This document shows positions 302 through 8,934 of a stretch of 11,903 nt of DNA, piece by piece. The first letter of the stretch is position 1, and the number at the start of each line of letters is the position of its first letter. The position numbers and the translations under genes were made by a program. The stretch covers positions 1 through 11,903 of the forward strand of contig JAEMPZ010000052.1 in NCBI GenBank assembly GCA_022759065.1, read 5' to 3'. Source of the stretch: Acidobacteriota bacterium. Its GTDB lineage: Bacteria; Acidobacteriota; UBA4820; DSQY01. The notes under the pieces are model-generated. The model was not told the origin of the DNA, searched no databases, and saw only the letters and a program-made list of their open reading frames with translations.

Positions 302-2347
302 TCAGAAGCTCCACATGACGCTGAGGCGGGCGCAGAGGGGATAGGCCGGGGTCAGGTAGTCATCCCATCCGTTGGTTATGCCTCGTCCGGCGTAGCGGTG
401 GTCGAGAAGGTTTGAAACCGAGGCGCGGACCGTCAGGGCGCGGTAGCGGTAACCGGCGGAAAGATCGGCGGTCGTATAGCCGCCAAGCTGCGGCCTGGTG
501 TTTGAGAGGTCGTTGTCGTAGAGTTGCGGCCCCACGAAGTGAAACGAGAATTGCGTGTTCCAGCCATGGCCGCTCCACGAGGCGCCTATGGTTCCCAGGC
601 CGCGGGGCGTCATTGGGATGCGGCTTTGCGCGTAGGGGCCTTTGGTTATCAGCGTCTCGGTGTAGGAGGCTTCCGCGAAAGCCGAAAAGCCGTGGCCGAG
701 TGGTATGTTTGCCTGTGCCTCCAGGCCGCGGCGCCTGGAAGCGGCGACGTTCATGTTCTCTCCGATGAACCACTGCGGGTCGGTCAGCACAAATACCACC
801 TCGTTGCTCAAATCCATCCTGAAGGCCGTGAAGGTCAGGCGCGTTCCGCCTTTTATATAGCGCCACCCCGCTTCCCAGTCCCTGGCGCGCGAGGGGACGA
901 GGTCCGGGTTGGAGTAGAAGCCGGGATAGGCGAAGAGGTCAACTACGGTGGGGATTCGGTAGCCTTCGCTGAAAGTCAGATAGGCGGAACTGAAGGGCGT
1001 CGTGTGGTATAGAAGCCCGAAGCGGCGCGTGTTTTCGCGAAAGACCCTCGTGGCGTCGTTCGGCGCGTAAAGGTGATCATTATAGTCGTAAGAGGCCCTG
1101 TCCCCCCTGAAGCCGGCTATGAGATGAAGGCCGCCGTAGCCGCCGTCCGCGGAAATCCATCCCGCGGCGAGATGTTCGCCGACGCTTGTCTTGGAGGCGA
1201 TAAACTTGTTGCCGCCGTAGATGTCGGTGTAGTAGCCCTCGCCGTCAAAGCGGCCCGAAGCTCCCTCCGCGCCAGCAGAGATGTCCCAGCTCCATTTCTG
1301 GCGCGTGCCGCTGTTTCTGGCCGAAGCGATGGCGCCGTCCAGCGATTCGCTTCCGGTCGTAAAGAATCCGCTGCCCCAGCGCCCGGTCGTAAGCGTGTCG
1401 CGGTCGTGCCTGCGCGAGTAGGCCTGCGCGTCGAAGGCCCAGCCGCCCGAAAGCGCTGCCTTGTAGCCCAGCGATGCGATGCGGCGCCTGCCCCTTGTGT
1501 TGTCGGCCAGGTTGAAGGGGGACTGGCGGGGGTCTTGCGCGTATTCCTCCGGCGTCAGGCTTCCCGGGTCGTTCTCCCTGCCGCCGTCGTACATCAGAAG
1601 CAGGGCCAGCGATTGGTTTGATGGGAGCGTCACGTTGAACCGCGCAAGCGCGTCATCGAGGCGGTAGCCGTCGTTCTGGCGCCAACCGTCCGAGCGCGCC
1701 GTTTGGCCCGCCGCGTAGAACTCCACGTCGTTGATGGTTCCGCTGGCGTGAAGGCGGCCTGATTCCTCGCCGTAGCTGCCTCCAGCGGCTTGCAGGTCGA
1801 GCCTAGGAATTCCCGGATCGCGCTTTGTTACGAGGTTCACGACGCCTCCCAGCGCTCCTCCGCCGTAGAGCGGCGCCGAAGCCCCGGCATAGACTTCTAT
1901 CCTTTCGAGGTCCTCGACGGGGATGCTGTCAAGGCGAACCGAGTTGTCCTGCAGGTCGTTGAGCCTGACGCCGTCGAGGAAAACGGCGACGCTCGTTCCG
2001 TCAGGGAAAGCTCTCAGGTCAACGGTTGACTCGCGCGGGTTCCCGGTCTGGTTGTGAAGCGCGATGGAGGGGAGAACCTCCAGCGCATCCTGGACGGTCG
2101 TAGCACCGGAAGCCTCGATCTGATCGCGAGTCACCACCGCTATGGGCGCCGCGGCATCAAGAATCTGTCTTTCCGAGGCTGGCAGCCTGTCGCCATAGAC
2201 GGTGACCGTGCTTTGGTAGTTTTGAAGCGCCTCGCGGGCGTCTTGCGCTTGCGCGCCAAGAGCGAGCGAGAGCGAGAAGAGAGCAAGGCAAGTTAGACGC
2301 GAGACGTTAGACGTGAGACGCGGGAATAAAAAAGAGTCGGAACGCAT
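302..2347 (-). CDS. btuB: TonB-dependent outer-membrane corrinoid receptor (BtuB-like)
   Basis: This 681-residue protein should bind cobalamin or a related corrinoid at the cell surface and import it into the periplasm using TonB energy. A signal peptide ends about residue 34 (LGAQA before QD). A TonB-box-like TVTVY at 47-51 follows, then the plug domain to about 165 (PIAVVTRDQIEASGA; VFLDGVRLND; IEVYAGASAPLYGGGALGG). The rest is an aromatic-rich beta-barrel ending in Phe681, the usual C-terminal signal for barrel insertion. It is longer than E. coli BtuB (614 aa). The ATG at 2347 has an AAGGAG ribosome site at 2359-2354, six bases upstream. It is the last gene of the riboswitch-led operon, 63 bp after the ATPase gene. 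The fold is certain; corrinoid specificity rests on the operon. A 7-nt array encodes residues around 10-19 of the signal peptide. Confidence 0.88.
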   Translation of the reverse strand: MRSDSFLFPRLTSNVSRLTCLALFSLSLALGAQAQDAREALQNYQSTVTVYGDRLPASERQILDAAAPIAVVTRDQIEASGATTVQDALEVLPSIALHNQTGNPRESTVDLRAFPDGTSVAVFLDGVRLNDLQDNSVRLDSIPVEDLERIEVYAGASAPLYGGGALGGVVNLVTKRDPGIPRLDLQAAGGSYGEESGRLHASGTINDVEFYAAGQTARSDGWRQNDGYRLDDALARFNVTLPSNQSLALLLMYDGGRENDPGSLTPEEYAQDPRQSPFNLADNTRGRRRIASLGYKAALSGGWAFDAQAYSRRHDRDTLTTGRWGSGFFTTGSESLDGAIASARNSGTRQKWSWDISAGAEGASGRFDGEGYYTDIYGGNKFIASKTSVGEHLAAGWISADGGYGGLHLIAGFRGDRASYDYNDHLYAPNDATRVFRENTRRFGLLYHTTPFSSAYLTFSEGYRIPTVVDLFAYPGFYSNPDLVPSRARDWEAGWRYIKGGTRLTFTAFRMDLSNEVVFVLTDPQWFIGENMNVAASRRRGLEAQANIPLGHGFSAFAEASYTETLITKGPYAQSRIPMTPRGLGTIGASWSGHGWNTQFSFHFVGPQLYDNDLSNTRPQLGGYTTADLSAGYRYRALTVRASVSNLLDHRYAGRGITNGWDDYLTPAYPLCARLSVMWSF
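2293..2320. repeat. Coding tandem array, 4 x 7 nt (TTAGACG), inside the BtuB signal peptide
   Basis: Four 7-nt units alternate TTAGACG, CGAGACG, TTAGACG, TGAGACG. They lie inside btuB and are read in all three phases because 7 is not a multiple of 3, giving the repetitive peptide RLTSNVSRLT (residues 10-19). This segment supplies the two arginines of the positively charged n-region ahead of the hydrophobic core. Confidence 0.8.
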
Positions 2348-2373
2348 CGGTTTCTCCTTTCGTGGCCATCTTT

Positions 2374-2400
2374 CTTGGCGCCTTGGTGTCTTGGTGGTGG
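2374..2400. repeat. Tandem array, 3 x 8 nt (CTTGGTGN), in the btuD-btuB gap
   Basis: Three 8-nt units (2374-2381, 2382-2389, 2390-2397) have the consensus CTTGGTGN and are followed by TGG. The array fills most of the 63-bp spacer between btuD and btuB, immediately upstream of the btuB ribosome binding site. Confidence 0.75.
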
Positions 2401-2410
2401 AGCCTTCTTC

Positions 2411-2445
2411 TTATTCAGCATTCATAATTCCTGCTTCATGCTTGC
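2411..2445. repeat. Coding 7-nt periodic array at the btuD 3' end
   Basis: Five 7-nt steps (2411-2417 to 2439-2445) show TTCA or a near variant at the same phase, most clearly at 2414, 2421 and 2435. The btuD stop codon (TAA at 2413-2411) and about ten C-terminal codons lie within it. The last ten bases, TCATGCTTGC (2436-2445), recur exactly at the other end of btuD (3239-3248). Confidence 0.6.
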
Positions 2446-3235
2446 CTTTGCCCGGGTCAGGGAACCAGCAAGTAATACCATCCAGCTTCGTTGGTATTAG
2501 CGGGGTGTGGTAGACCTTTTCAAGAAGAGCGCCTTGTTCCTCTTCCTTGTTGGGGAAAGGAGCAAGATGACCTGAACGGCCCAGGATGAAAAGGTCGAAG
2601 CCCCAGAGCCTGGGAAAGTTCACGTCGTGCGTGGCCAAAAGTATGGAGCGCCCATCTCCGGCCAGCCGCCCTAGAAGGTGGTGAAGCATCACCTGGCTGC
2701 GAAGGTCGAGGTGGCTTGCCGCCTCATCCAAAAGGAGCGCGGGAGTTTCCTGGACCAAAGCTCTCGCCAGCACCACGCGCTGGGCCTCCCCGCCGCTCAG
2801 CGTCGCTGCCGGGCGCTCCCAGATGGCCTGAAGGCCGAGCGCTTCGCGGGCCTCGTTAAGCCTTTGTTTGATGGGGCGTGGCGCGGGCGGCTTTTCACGG
2901 TGAGGGTAATCGCCTAATGCGACGATGTCTTTCACCGGCCAATCACCGGGCAGCAGCGAATTTTGCGGGACGTAGGCGACTCGCTTCGCTCTGTCCAATG
3001 GAGTGGCTTGCCCGAGCGGGATCGCGTCAACGGAACAGCGGCCTAAGGAGGGGAGTAGAAGCCCCGCCGCGAGCTTCAATAGGGTGGACTTTCCGGCGCC
3101 GTTCGGCCCTGCCACGGCGGAAACGCGGCCTTTGGGGAAAACGGCGCAAAGGCGGTCAAAGAGGGCCGGGCCGCCGGGATAGGCGAAAGTCACGTCATCG
3201 AAAGCGATCAATGCTCCGCCCTCTTCATCATTCAA
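2411..3235 (-). CDS. btuD: Corrinoid ABC transporter ATP-binding protein (BtuD-like)
   Basis: This 274-residue cytoplasmic ATPase powers the inner-membrane corrinoid importer with the adjacent BtuC-like permease. All nucleotide-binding motifs are intact: Walker A GPNGAGKST (43-51), Q-loop VPQNS (Q91), signature LSGGE (146-150), Walker B ALLLDEA (166-172, Glu171) and switch His203 in LLATHD. The reading frame begins at TTG 3235, overlapping the btuC stop by 8 bases. There is no in-frame ATG nearby, and a second TTG at 3211, just after GGCGGAG, is an alternative that removes eight residues. The family (BtuD, FecE, FhuC) also includes siderophore and heme ATPases, so the substrate is inferred from the riboswitch. 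The last residues (KHEAGIMNAE) are encoded by a 7-nt periodic array that also supplies the stop codon, and are unlikely to be part of the conserved fold. Confidence 0.9.
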   Translation of the reverse strand: MNDEEGGALIAFDDVTFAYPGGPALFDRLCAVFPKGRVSAVAGPNGAGKSTLLKLAAGLLLPSLGRCSVDAIPLGQATPLDRAKRVAYVPQNSLLPGDWPVKDIVALGDYPHREKPPAPRPIKQRLNEAREALGLQAIWERPAATLSGGEAQRVVLARALVQETPALLLDEAASHLDLRSQVMLHHLLGRLAGDGRSILLATHDVNFPRLWGFDLFILGRSGHLAPFPNKEEEQGALLEKVYHTPLIPTKLDGITCWFPDPGKGKHEAGIMNAE

Positions 3236-3248
3236 CCGTCATGCTTGC
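3221..3248. repeat. 7-nt periodic array across the btuC/btuD junction
   Basis: TTCA occurs at 3224 and 3231 and GTCA at 3238, seven bases apart, followed by TGCTTGC. The stretch covers the btuC stop codon (3230-3228) and the btuD TTG start (3235). It shares TCATGCTTGC with the array at the btuD 3' end. It is weaker than the non-coding arrays and could be partly chance. Confidence 0.45.
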
Positions 3249-4202
3249 TTTATTGGCCCTTACCATCAGCCAGAGAAACGCGGGGGCGCCCAAGAGGCTC
3301 GTGTAGGCGCCAACCGGAAGAAGAACCCATGGCGCAAGCGCCTTGGCCCCGGAGTGAGCAAACAGGAGAAGCGCCGCGCCCAAAAGGCACGAAAGTGGGA
3401 CAAGCGTCCTGTGGCGATGGCCGCTTAAGGCCCTGGCCGCGTGGGGGATCAGGAGTCCTATGAAGCCTATCATGCCACAGAGCGTGACGGCGGCGGCGGC
3501 AAGGAGAGTTCCCGCGGCCATCGCCCGCGACCTGACCCGGTCAACGTCAGCCCCGAGCGCAAGGGCCTCATCGTCCGCAAGCAGCAGAAGGTCCAAGGTT
3601 CGTGATTTGTAAACGGCCCAAGCGCCCAAAATGGCAACACAGGCCAAGAGGAGCGATGGTTCCCACACAGGGGGCGTGGGAACGTAGCCGAGCAGGAATA
3701 CGGTCACCTGGGCAATCTGGCCCGGTGATAGAAGGGCCGCCAGCACGCGCGCGGCGGCAGCGAAGGCGGTATTGGCAATCACTCCTCCGAGAAGCAGCGC
3801 CACGACTCTTCCGCGAGCGGCTCTTCGAAGTATGGAAAGCGTCGCCATGCCAGAGACAAAAGCGCAAAGCGCGCGCGCGGGAAGGATGACCGCGGCCGCT
3901 CCGTCGCCGAGTATCAGCAGCGCCGAAACCGAACCGAAGGCGGAACCCCCGGCCACCCCCATCACGTATGGATCGGCAAGGTTGTTGCGGAGCGAAAGCT
4001 GGAACAAAAGCCCAGAGAGCCCCAGGGCCGCGCCGGCGCCGGCCGCGGCCAGCGCCTCGGGAACCCGAAGGCCGAAAATGATTCTTGCGCGAGAAGCTTC
4101 GGAAAGGCCGCCAAGATCAGCGCCCAAAAGCAGAGCGCACGCAATGCCCGCGATAAGGGCGAGAAGGCCGATAGATAGCGCAACGGCCTCGCGCCTTGTC
4201 AT
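3228..4202 (-). CDS. btuC: Corrinoid ABC transporter permease (BtuC-like, FecCD family)
   Basis: This 324-residue polytopic inner-membrane protein forms the channel through which periplasmic corrinoid enters the cytoplasm. Family marks are GLRVPEALAA (44-53), NNLADPYVMGVAGG (73-86), the cytoplasmic coupling segment DDEALALGADVDRVR (210-224), GFIGLLIPHAAR (246-257) and a C-terminal GAPAFLWLM. Hydrophobic stretches fit the usual 9-10 helices, and the length is normal for BtuC/FecD (about 320-330). The ATG at 4202 overlaps the btuF stop as ATGA, so the two are probably translationally coupled; a purine-rich AAAAGAG precedes it inside the end of btuF. The protein sequence alone does not separate B12 from ferric-siderophore permeases, and the riboswitch decides for corrinoid. 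Confidence 0.9.
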   Translation of the reverse strand: MTRREAVALSIGLLALIAGIACALLLGADLGGLSEASRARIIFGLRVPEALAAAGAGAALGLSGLLFQLSLRNNLADPYVMGVAGGSAFGSVSALLILGDGAAAVILPARALCAFVSGMATLSILRRAARGRVVALLLGGVIANTAFAAAARVLAALLSPGQIAQVTVFLLGYVPTPPVWEPSLLLACVAILGAWAVYKSRTLDLLLLADDEALALGADVDRVRSRAMAAGTLLAAAAVTLCGMIGFIGLLIPHAARALSGHRHRTLVPLSCLLGAALLLFAHSGAKALAPWVLLPVGAYTSLLGAPAFLWLMVRANKASMTVE

Positions 4203-5104
4203 CTCTTTTGAGCCCTGTGCGCCTTTGTGTCCAGTTGTTTCTCTTCCCTTGCGCGGGAGAGCGCCTCTACGGCGTCAGCCGTTCGCGGGCCGGGGCGCAC
4301 GAGCAGGTCCGCGGGAATCTCGATCGGGAGGCATGGCTTGTCCACCATCCGGTTCAACCTGTTCACGAGCCGTTGAGCTTCGCCGGAGCTGATGTCGCCC
4401 GACGGAAAAATAAGGTAGTCGGGTTTCAGCGCCGCCAGCGTCTCGAGAGAGACGGCTGGGTAAGCCTCGCTGTGAGCCGTGAATGCCGCGCGGAAGCCCG
4501 CGGCACGAAGCAGATCGGAGAGAAAAGAGGCCGGCCCGGCCACCACGAGGGGCTCAATGTTGACGATGACCACTGCCTGCGGCAACAGGTTTCCTCGGGG
4601 AGTGGAGCAAGCGGTGATCCTGCTCATCATCGAAGCGGCGAGTTCCCTGGCCTGTTTCGCGTGGCCGGTCTTAAGCCCAACATCGCTGATGCATTCGTAA
4701 AGCTCGGCGAGCGTATCAATGCGGTAGGAATAGACCGGAATGGGAGCCCTCTTCAGGGCCTCCAACTGAGGCTCCCCCTGCATTCCCTCAATTGTGAAAC
4801 AAGCGGCCGCGCCACGCGCGATTATGCCTTCGGCGTCAACGCCCGAATAGGAAGCTACCACCGGCAGCGAGGCGGCTTCTTTGGGATAGTTCGCGGGGGC
4901 GCACACGCCGATTGTCTCCGCCCCGGCTCCGATGGCGAAGAGTATCTCGTTCATGCTTGGCGCGAGGCTTGCCCAACGATGAGAGGATGGTTGTGGAGCG
5001 GAGGCTGTTTTACAAGAGGCGGCAAATAACAGCAGCAGCGCGGCCAAACGGAATAAAGCGTTTGGATGTCTTGCTCGCGTTGGTGAAAGCCGGCCACGCC
5101 ACAT
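4199..5104 (-). CDS. btuF: Corrinoid-binding lipoprotein (BtuF-like)
   Basis: This 301-residue periplasmic binding protein should capture corrinoid and deliver it to the BtuC-like permease. It has a basic N-terminus, a Leu-rich core and the lipobox-like AASC with Cys31, so it is probably lipid-anchored rather than freely soluble like E. coli BtuF. The mature part is a class III (TroA/BtuF) binding fold: LAPSMNEILFAIGAG early, LPVVASYSGVDAEGII, then a long linking helix with GHAKQARELAASM and a second lobe ending DAVEALSRA. The ATG at 5104 has AAAGAGG at 5116-5110, five bases upstream. It is the first gene after the cobalamin riboswitch. About 15 extra C-terminal residues (EEKQLDTKAHRAQKR) look repeat-derived. 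Related siderophore-binding proteins are the main alternative. Confidence 0.87.
   Translation of the reverse strand: MWRGRLSPTRARHPNALFRLAALLLLFAASCKTASAPQPSSHRWASLAPSMNEILFAIGAGAETIGVCAPANYPKEAASLPVVASYSGVDAEGIIARGAAACFTIEGMQGEPQLEALKRAPIPVYSYRIDTLAELYECISDVGLKTGHAKQARELAASMMSRITACSTPRGNLLPQAVVIVNIEPLVVAGPASFLSDLLRAAGFRAAFTAHSEAYPAVSLETLAALKPDYLIFPSGDISSGEAQRLVNRLNRMVDKPCLPIEIPADLLVRPGPRTADAVEALSRAREEKQLDTKAHRAQKR
4213..4239. repeat. Degenerate coding array, 3 x 9 nt, at the btuF 3' end
   Basis: Three 9-nt steps (4213-4221, 4222-4230, 4231-4239) start with CC and carry TGTG or TTGT at the same phase; the middle one, CCTTTGTGT, matches the unit of the array at 246-275. It encodes QLDTKAHRA near the C-terminus of the BtuF-like protein. 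This is decayed and less certain than the non-coding arrays. Confidence 0.45.
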
Positions 5105-5166
5105 GGGTTCCTCTTTGTGATCCGGAGCCCCAATGGCGCGCGCTCAGTCCCCCCCTCGGGGGCTGA
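5102..5166 (-). promoter_or_regulatory. Riboswitch expression platform with RBS-sequestering hairpin
   Basis: On the transcript, CAUUGGGGCUCC (5135-5124) can pair with GGAACCCAUG (5111-5102), with a bulged U and a small internal loop. This would bury part of the btuF ribosome site and its start codon. An upstream AGCCCC (5164-5159) is complementary to GGGGCU (5131-5126) and could break that hairpin. A competing GC hairpin (UCAG 5166-5163 with CUGA 5147-5144, C-tract against G-tract inside) has no U-run after it. Together this fits control of translation rather than termination. Pairing was judged by eye. Confidence 0.5.
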
Positions 5167-5175
5167 CAGCCGTGC

Positions 5176-5339
5176 GTCCTCAGGCAGGTCTCCTGGCTTG
5201 CGGGTCGTCCTACTCGCGGCGCCTTCCCACCCTCATCAGGGCAGTGGCTTAGTGCCGCTTTCGTAGCCGCTCACAGTGGCGGGGCCGCGGCCGATTTTCA
5301 CGGCCTTCCCTTTTCACCCCGGATCGGGGCACCTTGGAC
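5176..5339 (-). ncRNA. Cobalamin riboswitch aptamer
   Basis: The minus strand shows the class-I cobalamin aptamer blocks in order: GGTGCCC, GGTGAAAAGGGAA, GGCCGUGAAAAUCGGCC, GCGGCCCCGCCACUGUGA, GAAAGCGGCACUAAGCCACUG, GGUGGGAAGGC, then the B12 box GCAAGCCAGGAGACCUGCCU (5201-5182). The closing stem P1 pairs GUCCAAGG (5339-5332) with CCUGAGGAC (5184-5176) around a small internal mismatch. It binds adenosylcobalamin or a related corrinoid and should shut off the btuF-btuC-btuD-btuB operon when corrinoid is plentiful. It starts only about 20 bases after the stop codon of the upstream small gene, with no terminator between, so the promoter is unclear. Confidence 0.96.
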
Positions 5340-5359
5340 AATAGTAAAGGAAGTTAGAG

Positions 5360-5578
5360 CTACTCGCCCTCTTCCGCGAACTCGTTCTTGACGCCCAACC
5401 TCATGCAGGCGGCGCCGTGCATCTGCAATGCCGCCTTCTTGGCTTCCTGGAGGGTGGCAAGCCGCTCCTTGACCTCTGCCAGCTCCTTCTCTATCTGCGC
5501 GTCAATCTCTTTGATCTCGTCGCGCGTCTGGTTGAGAGCGTCCTGATAAAATTTCTTCTGTTTGTCTGTCAGGCTCAC
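5360..5578 (-). CDS. Small coiled-coil protein, function unknown
   Basis: I do not recognise this 72-residue protein. It is strongly charged and almost entirely helical, with a heptad-like stretch from about residue 5 to 50 (DEIKEIDAQIEKELAEVKER), then AALQMHGAACMRLGVKNEF and an acidic tail EEGE. It has no signal peptide or membrane segment. The GTG at 5578 is preferred because AGGAGG (5591-5586 region of the AGGAGGAGG at 5592-5584) stands about eight bases upstream. The GTG at 5584 would add two residues but sits directly against that site. The gene begins 17 bases after the kinase stop codon, so it is almost certainly co-transcribed and perhaps coupled to it. A partner or oligomerisation factor for the kinase is possible, but that is guesswork. 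Confidence 0.75.
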   Translation of the reverse strand: MSLTDKQKKFYQDALNQTRDEIKEIDAQIEKELAEVKERLATLQEAKKAALQMHGAACMRLGVKNEFAEEGE

Positions 5579-5595
5579 GGGCACCTCCTCCTGCG

Positions 5596-8500
5596 TTATT
5601 TTATCTTGAGCTGAACGGGGAACGTCAACTTTGTTTTCACTGGGACGTTGTCCTTGATGGCCGGCGAGAACTTCATGTTTAGCGCCGCCTTCGAGAGCGT
5701 GTCACCCATTCCATAGTCTGGATTGGGCGCTTTCACCACGCGGGCGGCCGTCACTTCGCCGCGTTCATTGATGTCGGCTTCGATGTAGATGGTGCCCTGC
5801 AGCCGGTTGGTCCTGGCCTGGGGCGTGTACTCGACCTTAAGCGGCGTGAGCTCGCGGGGCTTAACGTTCACGGCGAATATCTCGACGAAATCCCCCGGTT
5901 TTGTCGTCTGCGCCGCGGCTGTCTGCGCCGCTTTTTCCGCTTCGGCCTTCTTGCGCGCCTCTTCCTCGGCGGCCTTTCTTGAGGCTTCGGCGGCGGCCGC
6001 CGCCTCAGTGGCCTTCATTTGCTCGTCGGCGGTCTTGGCCTGAACGGCCTGGTCCTTGACCTGCTGGGCGAGCGTCAGGCCCTGCTTCGCTGTTTGCGCG
6101 GCGGCGTTATACTCCTCGACCGTTTTTGCCCGCTTGTAGAGCTTGTCAATGTTGGCCTTGCTCTGTTTCAGCGAGTCGAGGGCGGCCGTGGCGTACTGCG
6201 CGGCCCCGGCCTGTTCGGCGGCGGAGATGGCATCGTCAAAGGACTTGACCGCCGCCGCTGCCTGCTCCCTGGCGGCCTTCGTCTCCGCCTCGGTAGCTGG
6301 CGGCGCTCCGGGAGCGGGCGCTGCCGGTTTAGGCGGTTCCAAAACCGGCGGCGTGGCAGGGGCCGGCTGCGGCTGCGCCGGGGCGGTGGAAGCCGAAGGC
6401 GCGGCAGGCGGTGGAGCCGAAGGTTTCTTGGAACCGGATACAGCGAAAATGACGATGACAAGAACGACGACAGCCGCCGCTATTCCCCCGATGACATAGA
6501 GCTTCTTCTTGTCGGATGACTGCTCCTCGCGCATGGACTTGAACATGCCGGCGCTCTCTTCCGCGGCCTGCGGGACCGGCGCCTGCTTTGGCTCGTCCTT
6601 CCGGGGCGGCTTTTCCTCGGCGGGGGAGGGCTGCTGCTGCGGTTTGGGAGAAGGCGCTTGAGGCTTGGGCTGAGGTTTCTCTTCGGGAGGAGGCGCCTGC
6701 TTCTTTAATGGGGCTGGCTTTCCCCGCTGGAATTTCGACGGCTTGGCTTCTGCCTTCGATGCGCTCTCAGGGGCCGGAGCGGCTTGGGGTTGGGCCTGCG
6801 GCTCGGCTTGCCTGTCGGCGCTCTCTTCCAGCTTGGAGTCAGCGTGTTCGCGCGCCAGAAGCTGCAACGCCTCCTTCTTGTACACGTCGGGGAAAATCGC
6901 CGTGAGGAACTCGACCGCGTGGTACGGGCCGGGCAGCGCCTTCCATTCCTGGCGCGCGAACCGTTCGAGGTCGAGCTGGAGCGCCTTGCAATCCGGGTAG
7001 CGCCGAGAAAGGTCCTTCTCCAAGGCGCGGCGGAGTATTTTTTCGAGCCCCTCCGGGATGCTGGACCTGAACTCCGCGAAATCGGGCAGCTTCGCCTCGC
7101 GCACCTTTTCGAGGATGGACATCTCCGAGTCGCCGTAGAAAAGCTTTCGGCCGGTGAGCATCTCGAAAAGGACGATGGCAAGGGAGAAAATGTCCGTGCG
7201 CGCGTCGGTCGGGCGGCCAAAGGCCTGCTCCGGGGACATGTAGAGCAGCTTGCCCTTCAGGGCGCCGGACTGCGTGTGGCTGGCTTTTGACGCCGCCTTG
7301 GCTATGCCGAAGTCCACAAGCTTGACCTCGCCAACGGAGGAAATGAGAATGTTCTGCGGGGAGACGTCCCTGTGGACAAGGTGCATCGGCTTGCGGTCGC
7401 TGTCTTTCGCCACGTGAGCGTAATGGAGGGCGGAGGCCACCTGCTGGGCGACGAAGACCGCCGCGCGAGTAGGGAAAAGCTTGCCTTGCTCGTCAAGAGC
7501 CCTTAGTATGGCTCGCAGGTCTTTGCCTTCGACGTATTCCATTGCTATGAAGTAGGCGTCTTCCAGCTTGCCTAGATCATAGATGTGGGCGATGTTTGGA
7601 TGGTTCAGTTGGGCGGCAAGCTTGGCCTCGTCAATGAACATCGTGACGAAGTCCGAGTTGGCCGCGAGGTGCGGCAGGATGCGCTTGATGGCGACGATGC
7701 GCTGGAATCCCTCAAGGCCGGTCTGCTTTGCCTTGAAAAGTTCAGCCATTCCACCGACGGCGATCTTGTCCATGAGGATGTATTGGCCGAAGGTAACGCC
7801 CTCTTCCTTGGCCGGCGTCCCCTCTGGTTTAGCCGCGGCCGCTGGCTCCTCCGCCTTTGCGGGAGGCGGCGGCGCTTCGGCTTTGGGGGCTTGGATTACC
7901 GGTTCAGGCGGCTTTGGCGGCGGGATCACCGGCTCGGGAGGCTTTGTCTCGGCAACTGGAGGCTTTATCGCGGCTTGGGGCTTGGGCTTCAAACGCACGC
8001 CCGAAAGCGTCTCCTCCAATTTCTTGTCAAGCTCCTGCTTGGACCTGTCGGCAAGGCGCTTGACGCCCGTGTCCTGCGTGATGATGGGGCGCAACAGCGC
8101 CTTGTCCAAATCGTCGGACGCAATTGCCACCGGCGGTTTGAGTTCCTCCTGGACTTGCGCCTTTGGCGGTTGGACCGGCGGCGGTGGCGGTGGCGGCGGC
8201 TCGACCTTCGGTGGTGGTGGCGGCGGCGGAGGAGGAGGCGGTGGTGGCAACGGTTCGGGCGCGGACACCTCCTTGATCACGTCCCCGAACAGCTCTTCCG
8301 ATGTCAAGGCCTTCTCCGGCAGTGGCGCAGCCGGCTCAGGCTCGGGCATTGGGGGTATTTCAACGTGAGGCACAACGGGCGTAGCCCCTGATGGCTTGCC
8401 TCCGCCACGCTTCATGCCGACGCGAAGCCCTGAAAGGGTGTCTTCAAGCGCTTTATCAATGTCAAATGCGGCCTGGGTGGCCGACGCCGCCGGTTTCGCT

Positions 8501-8934
8501 TGTTCGGGTTTTGGCGCCTCGGAAACCGGCGCGGGTTTGGGGGCCGATACAACTGGCTTTGGCGCAAGGTAGCGTTCGAGCGTCTCGCTGAGAACGTTTT
8601 CGTCAACCGGATCCTCGAGGTAGTCAGCCGCCCCGTATATCTTTATCGCGTCACTCTTGTACTTGCGAGACTTGTAGATGCTGCAGTGCATGACCACTGG
8701 AACCGGCCTGGAGCCAGAGCGTTCGACCATCTCTTGGCAGACCTGAAAGCCGTGCTTCTTCGGAAGCATCGTCCTTAAGAGGACCAGGTCCGGGTGAAAT
8801 TGATCGAAAACCTCAAGCGCGGCGGCGCCATCCTTGGCCGTTTCAACCTCGTAAAGGTCCTTTGGAATAAGGCTTACAAGGCGTTCCAGCGACTTGGGCT
8901 CGTATTCAACTACCAGCACGCGTTTCTTAGCCAT
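5596..8934 (-). CDS. Mosaic protein: degenerate receiver, Ser/Thr kinase, membrane helix, TonB C-terminal domain
   Basis: This 1112-residue protein has a receiver-like domain (1-124) lacking the phosphoacceptor: Arg54 stands in for Asp in LVLLRTMLP, Asp108 for the conserved Lys, and the acid pair reads Glu10-Tyr11. Residues 125-380 are a Pro/Ala-rich linker with runs of 13 and 8 prolines. A Hanks-type kinase (about 383-660) looks active: VGGMAE loop (393-398), Lys417, Glu436, HRDVSPQN (521-528), DFG (541-543), SPE (567-569). After a second Pro-rich linker comes one membrane helix (811-834), an Ala/Lys/Glu helical region like TolA (885-1005) and a TonB C-terminal domain (1015-1112, YTPQAR, INERGEV, MKFSPA). 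The kinase should be cytoplasmic and the TonB end periplasmic. The ATG at 8934 has GGGGG eight bases upstream. Substrates are unknown. Confidence 0.9.
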   Translation of the reverse strand: MAKKRVLVVEYEPKSLERLVSLIPKDLYEVETAKDGAAALEVFDQFHPDLVLLRTMLPKKHGFQVCQEMVERSGSRPVPVVMHCSIYKSRKYKSDAIKIYGAADYLEDPVDENVLSETLERYLAPKPVVSAPKPAPVSEAPKPEQAKPAASATQAAFDIDKALEDTLSGLRVGMKRGGGKPSGATPVVPHVEIPPMPEPEPAAPLPEKALTSEELFGDVIKEVSAPEPLPPPPPPPPPPPPPKVEPPPPPPPPVQPPKAQVQEELKPPVAIASDDLDKALLRPIITQDTGVKRLADRSKQELDKKLEETLSGVRLKPKPQAAIKPPVAETKPPEPVIPPPKPPEPVIQAPKAEAPPPPAKAEEPAAAAKPEGTPAKEEGVTFGQYILMDKIAVGGMAELFKAKQTGLEGFQRIVAIKRILPHLAANSDFVTMFIDEAKLAAQLNHPNIAHIYDLGKLEDAYFIAMEYVEGKDLRAILRALDEQGKLFPTRAAVFVAQQVASALHYAHVAKDSDRKPMHLVHRDVSPQNILISSVGEVKLVDFGIAKAASKASHTQSGALKGKLLYMSPEQAFGRPTDARTDIFSLAIVLFEMLTGRKLFYGDSEMSILEKVREAKLPDFAEFRSSIPEGLEKILRRALEKDLSRRYPDCKALQLDLERFARQEWKALPGPYHAVEFLTAIFPDVYKKEALQLLAREHADSKLEESADRQAEPQAQPQAAPAPESASKAEAKPSKFQRGKPAPLKKQAPPPEEKPQPKPQAPSPKPQQQPSPAEEKPPRKDEPKQAPVPQAAEESAGMFKSMREEQSSDKKKLYVIGGIAAAVVVLVIVIFAVSGSKKPSAPPPAAPSASTAPAQPQPAPATPPVLEPPKPAAPAPGAPPATEAETKAAREQAAAAVKSFDDAISAAEQAGAAQYATAALDSLKQSKANIDKLYKRAKTVEEYNAAAQTAKQGLTLAQQVKDQAVQAKTADEQMKATEAAAAAEASRKAAEEEARKKAEAEKAAQTAAAQTTKPGDFVEIFAVNVKPRELTPLKVEYTPQARTNRLQGTIYIEADINERGEVTAARVVKAPNPDYGMGDTLSKAALNMKFSPAIKDNVPVKTKLTFPVQLKIK

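Follow-up and report, generated by a model that had tools for sequence, protein, structure and literature searches.

PASTA-type Ser/Thr kinases (PknB, StkP and Stk1) join a cytoplasmic Hanks kinase to an extracytoplasmic part through a single transmembrane (TM) helix, and the TonB and TolA energy transducers combine a single TM helix with a long stalk and a periplasmic C-terminal domain. This TonB-type domain (TonB_C) is also carried by multi-domain proteins other than TonB, among them those of the PglI/AgmX type, a use of TonB_C shared by the protein described here. Two papers report that TonB and TolA reach their motors through two residues of the SHLS motif of the membrane helix, a Ser and an indispensable His (PMC12215075, PMC12204202), that this His contacts ExbB or TolQ (PMC12215075), and that their tips bind targets through strand addition (PMC12204202). 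We analysed a stretch of 11,903 nucleotides from an Acidobacteriota bacterium (GenBank assembly GCA_022759065.1, contig JAEMPZ010000052.1; class UBA4820), hereafter the window, in which one gene encodes a protein of 1112 amino acids combining a pseudo-receiver, a Ser/Thr kinase and a TonB_C domain, and is directly followed by a gene for a protein of 72 amino acids.

The large protein shares with PASTA-type kinases the cytoplasmic kinase, the single TM helix and the presence of an extracytoplasmic part, but differs from them by a TonB_C domain on the outside, an N-terminal pseudo-receiver, linker motifs and a co-encoded small protein. With TonB and TolA it has in common the fold of the periplasmic C-terminal domain, the single TM helix and the long stalk, whereas its TM helix is not N-terminal, lacks the His and has a cytoplasmic kinase attached, and some of its relatives have no TonB_C at all. 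A related kinase domain (47-51% identity) is found in Hanks kinases of three deltaproteobacterial or myxococcal relatives (L030, L032 and L058), which carry PEGA domains in place of TonB_C, but these have neither Response_reg nor TonB_C according to Pfam and their genomes hold no small protein. We place the system as a variant of membrane Ser/Thr kinases and, with a probability of about 0.5, read the large protein as a modular trans-envelope signalling protein and not an energy transducer, in which TonB_C would sense or pair and the 72-residue protein would be the cytoplasmic partner. The PknB/StkP-like kinase domain and the ordinary TonB fold are known elements; a search of titles among open-licence papers yielded no description of the two combined, of the modular distribution of this architecture or of its small partner.

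Domain architecture of the large protein

The features of the large protein are as follows, in its own N- to C-terminal order.

5596..8934, minus strand: pseudo-receiver, Pro-rich linker, Ser/Thr kinase, membrane helix, helical periplasmic stretch and TonB_C in one protein (open reading frame, Pfam, full-length model)
8578..8919, minus strand: pseudo-receiver domain, residues 6-119 (Pfam Response_reg, E 1.7e-15), with Arg54 at the phospho-acceptor position
7996..8457, minus strand: linker with conserved short motifs (conserved columns in an alignment of relatives)
6982..7773, minus strand: Ser/Thr kinase domain, residues 388-651 (Pfam Pkinase, E 2.1e-40; PknB and StkP among the best solved chains)
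6433..6504, minus strand: predicted membrane helix, residues 811-834 (helix 816-832 in the model; alignment of relatives)
5938..6291, minus strand: helical, predicted periplasmic stretch, residues about 882-999 (model helices 882-914, 916-935 and 939-999)
5599..5895, minus strand: TonB_C domain with a conserved GDFV lead-in, residues about 1014-1112 (Pfam, NCBIfam, model, Foldseek)

The reading frame starts with ATG and encodes a single polypeptide, in which the Response_reg, Pkinase and TonB_C matches (the last at residues 1035-1108, E 2.6e-7) all exceeded the curated Pfam cut-offs, the NCBIfam model tonB_Cterm agreeing with the TonB_C call (E 5e-9). The full-length AlphaFold model contains a receiver fold, the kinase, a helix at 816-832, helices between 882 and 999 and a TonB-type alpha/beta domain extending to residue 1110. 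Its mean predicted local distance difference test score (pLDDT) is only 63.7 because the Pro-rich linkers are unordered, the blocks of residues 1011-1110 reaching 83-94, and the C-terminal 120 residues modelled separately scored 88.4. Compared with the PDB by Foldseek, this C-terminal domain had TonB-family C-terminal domains as its top 17 matches (E 1.1e-4 to 0.21, three of them with E <= 0.001). The original prediction, made from the letters alone, had proposed this domain order, a membrane helix at 811-834, a TonB fold at 1015-1112 and a topology with the kinase in the cytoplasm and the TonB-like tip in the periplasm. The order is borne out here and in relatives, the modelled helix lies within the proposed segment, and the topology is supported; neither outcome named as fatal to the proposal, a C-terminus without TonB fold or a segment 811-834 that is not a membrane helix, occurred. 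The helical periplasmic stretch, in which a DUF4398-like domain had been suspected, matched no Pfam family above cut-off.

The kinase domain retains VAIK (414-417), HRDVSPQN (521-528), DFG (541-543) and SPE (567-569), that is, the catalytic Lys, HRDxxxxN, DFG and APE-like motif by which a Hanks-type kinase is recognised, and it looks active on this basis. In the survey described below, none of the 59 kinases encoded upstream of the small gene has lost HRDxxxxN or DFG. The solved structures nearest to it in sequence include PknB/StkP-type kinases, and its best NCBIfam match, PknB_PASTA_kin, scored 292.7, below the cut-off of 450; no PASTA repeats were detected by Pfam in the 1112-residue protein.

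The receiver is degenerate. In an alignment made by eye, E10/Y11, R54, C84 and D108 fall at the positions of D12/D13, D57, T87 and K109 of CheY. The conserved Asp of phospho-accepting response regulators is thus replaced by Arg54 in the window protein, and an Asp occupies this position in only 4 of 53 receivers of the family, two of which (L188 and L196) are weak partial matches; the domain is therefore unlikely to accept phosphate in the usual way. The linker of the window protein contains the motifs DKALEDTLSGL (160-170), LTSEELFGD (210-218) and DKKLEETLSGV (303-313). Of 75 linkers, 42 contain the pattern L..TL[SA][GD][LVIFM], which over 200 shuffles averaged 0.03 occurrences with a maximum of 1, and 20 contain an LTSEDLFGD-like motif (shuffle mean 0.005). 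The model places helices at 159-170 and 289-309, where pLDDT is low or moderate. The motifs may be docking sites.

A conserved and modular gene pair in Acidobacteriota

Directly behind the kinase gene lies a second open reading frame, which was not part of the original prediction.

5360..5578, minus strand: protein of 72 amino acids, putative coiled coil, GTG start, co-encoded with the kinase (alignment of related loci)

Its product, whose coiled-coil character was read from the sequence without a prediction tool, is 45-83% identical in related loci, matches no Pfam family above cut-off and no NCBIfam model at E 0.01, and its best match among solved structures has an E-value of only 0.035. It was found in 136 of 396 Acidobacteriota genomes, representing 72 of 210 genera, and in none of 48 genomes from outside the phylum holding related kinases, a small and biased sample searched without a positive control. 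Within the class, where the search started from the kinase, the small gene is present in 11 of 13 genomes, the other two being G003 and G004; orthologous kinase matches were obtained in all 13, in pieces only for these same two genomes, and the G004-type kinase frame reaches the end of its contig (L009).

The architecture of the protein encoded upstream was compared in 77 Acidobacteriota loci fetched around the small gene, which is present in all of them, some genera being represented twice. Receiver, kinase and TonB_C were called with hidden Markov models built from this family, and Pfam was run on 9 + 6 large proteins; it agreed with the calls for five TonB_C proteins without kinase (L166, L189, L195, L203 and L231) and four kinases without TonB_C (L173, L201, L205 and L223). 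A kinase lies upstream of the small gene in 59 loci (L188 counted among them). The order receiver, kinase, TM helix and TonB_C, for which the original prediction had advised a homologue search, is found in 41 of the 77, and the same order without receiver in 4, two of which begin at a contig start. Receiver, TM helix and TonB_C occur without a kinase in 6 loci, and TM helix and TonB_C alone in 6 others, one beginning at a contig start. No TonB_C was detected in 14 kinases, more exactly 13 + 1, as L182 is masked by N exactly there; three of them (L183, L205 and L224) also lack a membrane helix. The 6 loci left without an architecture call, either for want of a usable upstream frame (L185, L187 and L194) or because they were uninformative (L197, L229 and L235), are kept in the denominator. 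The gene pair is thus both conserved and modular in Acidobacteriota: the variants found beside the small gene indicate that kinase, tip and receiver can each be missing, and the PEGA domains of the three more distant relatives fit an outer part that is an exchangeable sensor. One family (f23: L173, L188, L190, L196, L215, L219, L220 and L238) consists of tail-anchored kinases that end in the membrane helix, without TonB_C, and still adjoin the small gene.

The membrane helix and the neighbouring genes

The His of the TonB and TolA membrane helix is absent from the window protein and from every one of the 71 TM-bearing proteins among 75 examined; 58 of these 71 carry TonB_C (family model calls plus the window protein). 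This set comprises the proteins of 74 loci and the window and includes those of L197, L229 and L235, which may be unrelated; the last two are counted within the 71. Among control TonB_C proteins of 239-300 amino acids from the class, the His was found in 14 of 18, and of the other four, L003 and L264 resemble lipoproteins and L255 and L262 have Gln instead. The control was limited to a fetched subset of the TonB_C loci plus L003, L100 and L101, more matches existing, and it leaves out kinase-like entries as well as frames that are short or truncated (L254, L266, L269 and L100) and long ones (L242, L247 and L260); these omitted frames have no His in the helix chosen by the script, the 351-residue frame of L100 having one in a nearby hydrophobic stretch. 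The complete Ser-x3-His of the SHLS motif is missing from the window protein and was flagged in no control either, so the Ser is uninformative and only the His is informative. Two of the long frames, L242 and L247 (G005:C99 and G007:C40), are TonB_C proteins with open frames of 653-683 amino acids and an internal membrane helix, in which the frames examined gave no match to the family kinase model.

No exbB or exbD gene is present in the window. ExbB/ExbD matches were found elsewhere in the genome, on contigs C144, C20 and C195; separate TonB_C genes are present as well on C144 and C20, which bear the ExbD matches. Some families have a TolQ/ExbB-like gene accompanied by ExbD genes near the locus (L230 13924-15142, plus strand; L202, L223 and others), in opposite orientation to the kinase and often beside yebC and ruvC.

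In the window, the genes run in the order ctp, ffh, kinase, small gene, cobalamin riboswitch, btuF, btuC, btuD and btuB. For a terminator-like hairpin considered between ffh and the kinase, RNA folding of the stretch was no better than in shuffles (z -0.16). Like the small gene, the riboswitch was not among the features of the original prediction.

5166..5351, minus strand: cobalamin riboswitch, beginning 8 nucleotides past the stop codon of the small reading frame (Rfam RF00174, 128.5 bits, E 1.1e-32)
302..5104, minus strand: btuF-, btuC-, btuD- and btuB-like genes, for a binding protein, FecCD permease, ATPase and TonB-dependent receptor (Pfam)

The Btu names are deduced from the riboswitch and the gene set together, the NCBIfam equivalog cut-offs not being reached; in particular, the BtuB-like protein has a Plug domain and a barrel by Pfam and the riboswitch upstream, and scored 135.8 bits against TIGR01779 (cut-off 599.7). 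The riboswitch was recovered in all 9 class loci tested, the window and 8 others, and starts 3-13 nucleotides past the stop codon of the small gene in 7 of them (79 and 87 in L012 and L013). The 8-nucleotide gap in the window leaves no room for a promoter, which suggests that the riboswitch lies within a longer transcript or that a promoter lies inside the small gene. BtuF- and BtuC-like genes follow in all 10 class genomes with sufficient contig.

Neighbouring genes were called by a simple longest-frame method, with spurious frames in GC-rich loci, and their counts are lower bounds. Among the 59 kinase loci, the pair is followed by accD in 13 and by folC in 22, and 12 have glyA close by (one member of each cluster checked). 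Six kinase loci have a different outer-membrane barrel cluster, assigned to PF25183 for both members checked, 3-5 genes upstream, in 5 cases on the opposite strand. A RelA/SpoT-type protein is encoded after the small gene in L184 (9463-11634, plus strand; Pfam on this locus only), with a gene of the same cluster in L206. Four or five genes upstream, on the other strand, a DUF4388 protein was found in L225 (2166-3062, minus strand; Pfam on this locus), L168, L179 and L198, and a second cluster resembling it is present near 6 further loci.

Proposed mechanism and alternatives

What follows on the direction of signalling, on the ligand and on what the small protein does is inferred. The periplasmic TonB-type domain would act as a sensing or pairing domain, its tip binding, like the tips of TonB and TolA, either another TonB_C or an extended strand offered by a partner in the periplasm or the outer membrane; strand addition as reported for those tips suits the reading of an extended strand of an envelope partner. 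The signal would then pass from the periplasm to the cytoplasm through the kinase, regulated across the membrane helix as in the PASTA-type PknB and StkP. The pseudo-receiver and the linker motifs might provide docking surfaces, and the 72-residue protein could be the cytoplasmic partner, whether adaptor, regulator or substrate.

Several observations weigh against this signalling role. Selection of the 77 loci started from the small gene, so that kinases lacking it would have escaped; what ties the small to the large protein is the adjacency of their genes and their co-occurrence. In the control, most TonB_C proteins outside the 239-300 residue range lack the TM His as well, so that its absence marks a protein that is not an ordinary TonB and does not point to one function. 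In 7 of the 59 kinase loci, 4-5 genes upstream and on the opposite strand, there is an ExbB-like gene, accompanied in 5 of them by ExbD (one ExbB and one ExbD checked in Pfam). Finally, the TonB fold is retained, so the tip could still contact a genuine TonB-dependent receptor, and within the class a BtuB-type receptor is encoded downstream in all 9 genomes whose contig reaches there.

The retained fold, the plausible orientation and the ExbB/ExbD matches of the genome would also suit a TonB energy transducer gated by phosphorylation, the first of two functions offered by the original prediction. It fits poorly with a TM His found in 0 of 71 family members against 14 of 18 controls, with the absence of TonB_C from 13 of 59 family kinases, and with the lack of exbB/exbD in the window while the ExbD-bearing contigs have TonB_C genes of their own, and we consider it very improbable. 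An accidental fusion or an assembly artefact might be suspected in a contig of a genome that is 86.5% complete, but the orthologous matches in every one of the 13 class genomes, fragmentary in G003 and G004, and the recurrence of the domain order in 41 of 77 loci refute it, leaving it a negligible chance. The second function offered, that contact with a receptor is reported inward to the kinase, is compatible with our results and nearer to what we propose, and can be specified as the tip contacting the neighbouring BtuB and reporting cobalamin uptake. Besides the BtuF-, BtuC- and BtuB-like genes that follow the pair in the class genomes with sufficient contig and the riboswitch between them, all possibly on one shared transcript, the Foldseek matches include the BtuB-bound TonB (2gsk), and the window BtuB has near its N-terminus a stretch, STVTVYG, which we take to be TonB-box-like. 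However, tblastn with this BtuB revealed no such receptor in 73 loci outside the class, where a BtuF-like gene is adjacent in 12 and the riboswitch is present in none of 12 tested; accD or folC follows in many kinase loci, and the riboswitch itself already reports cobalamin. The TonB-dependent receptor thus appears as a neighbour in one class and not as a general rule, and exbB-like genes, the other neighbours that the original prediction advised tabulating, were near 7 of the 59 kinase loci. BtuB is the best single candidate partner of the tip, within the class only, and the cobalamin-reporting role as such seems doubtful.

The tip could instead serve chiefly for pairing, either by dimerising the kinase or by joining it to a pseudokinase paralogue of the class that bears a TonB_C of this kind too; TonB C-terminal domains are known to form dimers. 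This long paralogue, with a degenerate kinase region, a TM helix and TonB_C, is present in 12 of the 13 class genomes (the G004 copy begins at a contig edge). HRDxxxxN is kept in none of the 12, and a DFG string is seen in four, in each case within the TonB_C end. The thirteenth genome, G003, has only an 85-residue TonB_C fragment at a contig end that may belong to either protein. Within the window's genus, the TonB_C of the kinase clusters with those of the paralogues (tree support 99/97) and is 63.5% identical to that of its own genome's paralogue, against 44-58% to its class orthologues, which suggests an exchange between the two genes.

Window 5599-5895 and L099 4815-5174, both minus strand: TonB_C regions apparently exchanged in the window's genus (tree support 99/97)

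The exchange is seen in one genus only and is not proposed as a general rule; in the remaining 10 genomes that were compared, the tips of the kinases group with one another, which counts against pairing as the chief function. We hold such pairing to be unlikely, though less so than cobalamin reporting. In L099 (G000:C103), the paralogue gene (4812-6788, minus strand) lies directly upstream of a same-strand gene (3370-4782), presumably glutamine synthetase-like.

Returning to the signalling role, we tentatively extend it, as a possibility of lower probability than the core proposal, to a widespread Acidobacteriota module in which a TonB-type tip would read the state of the outer membrane or of a receptor and control an inner-membrane kinase, with the undescribed 72-residue protein as cytoplasmic partner; from lineage to lineage, tip, kinase and receiver would be swapped or lost, with the small partner retained. 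If this is true, a fold that transmits force in TonB has come to receive signals as part of a kinase, and Acidobacteriota, a phylum difficult to study, gain a conserved, testable signalling pair. The 72-residue protein, short, strongly conserved and usable as bait, offers a clear handle on it, and in the class the run of kinase, riboswitch and vitamin B12 import genes allows a direct test of whether cobalamin and phosphorylation are linked.

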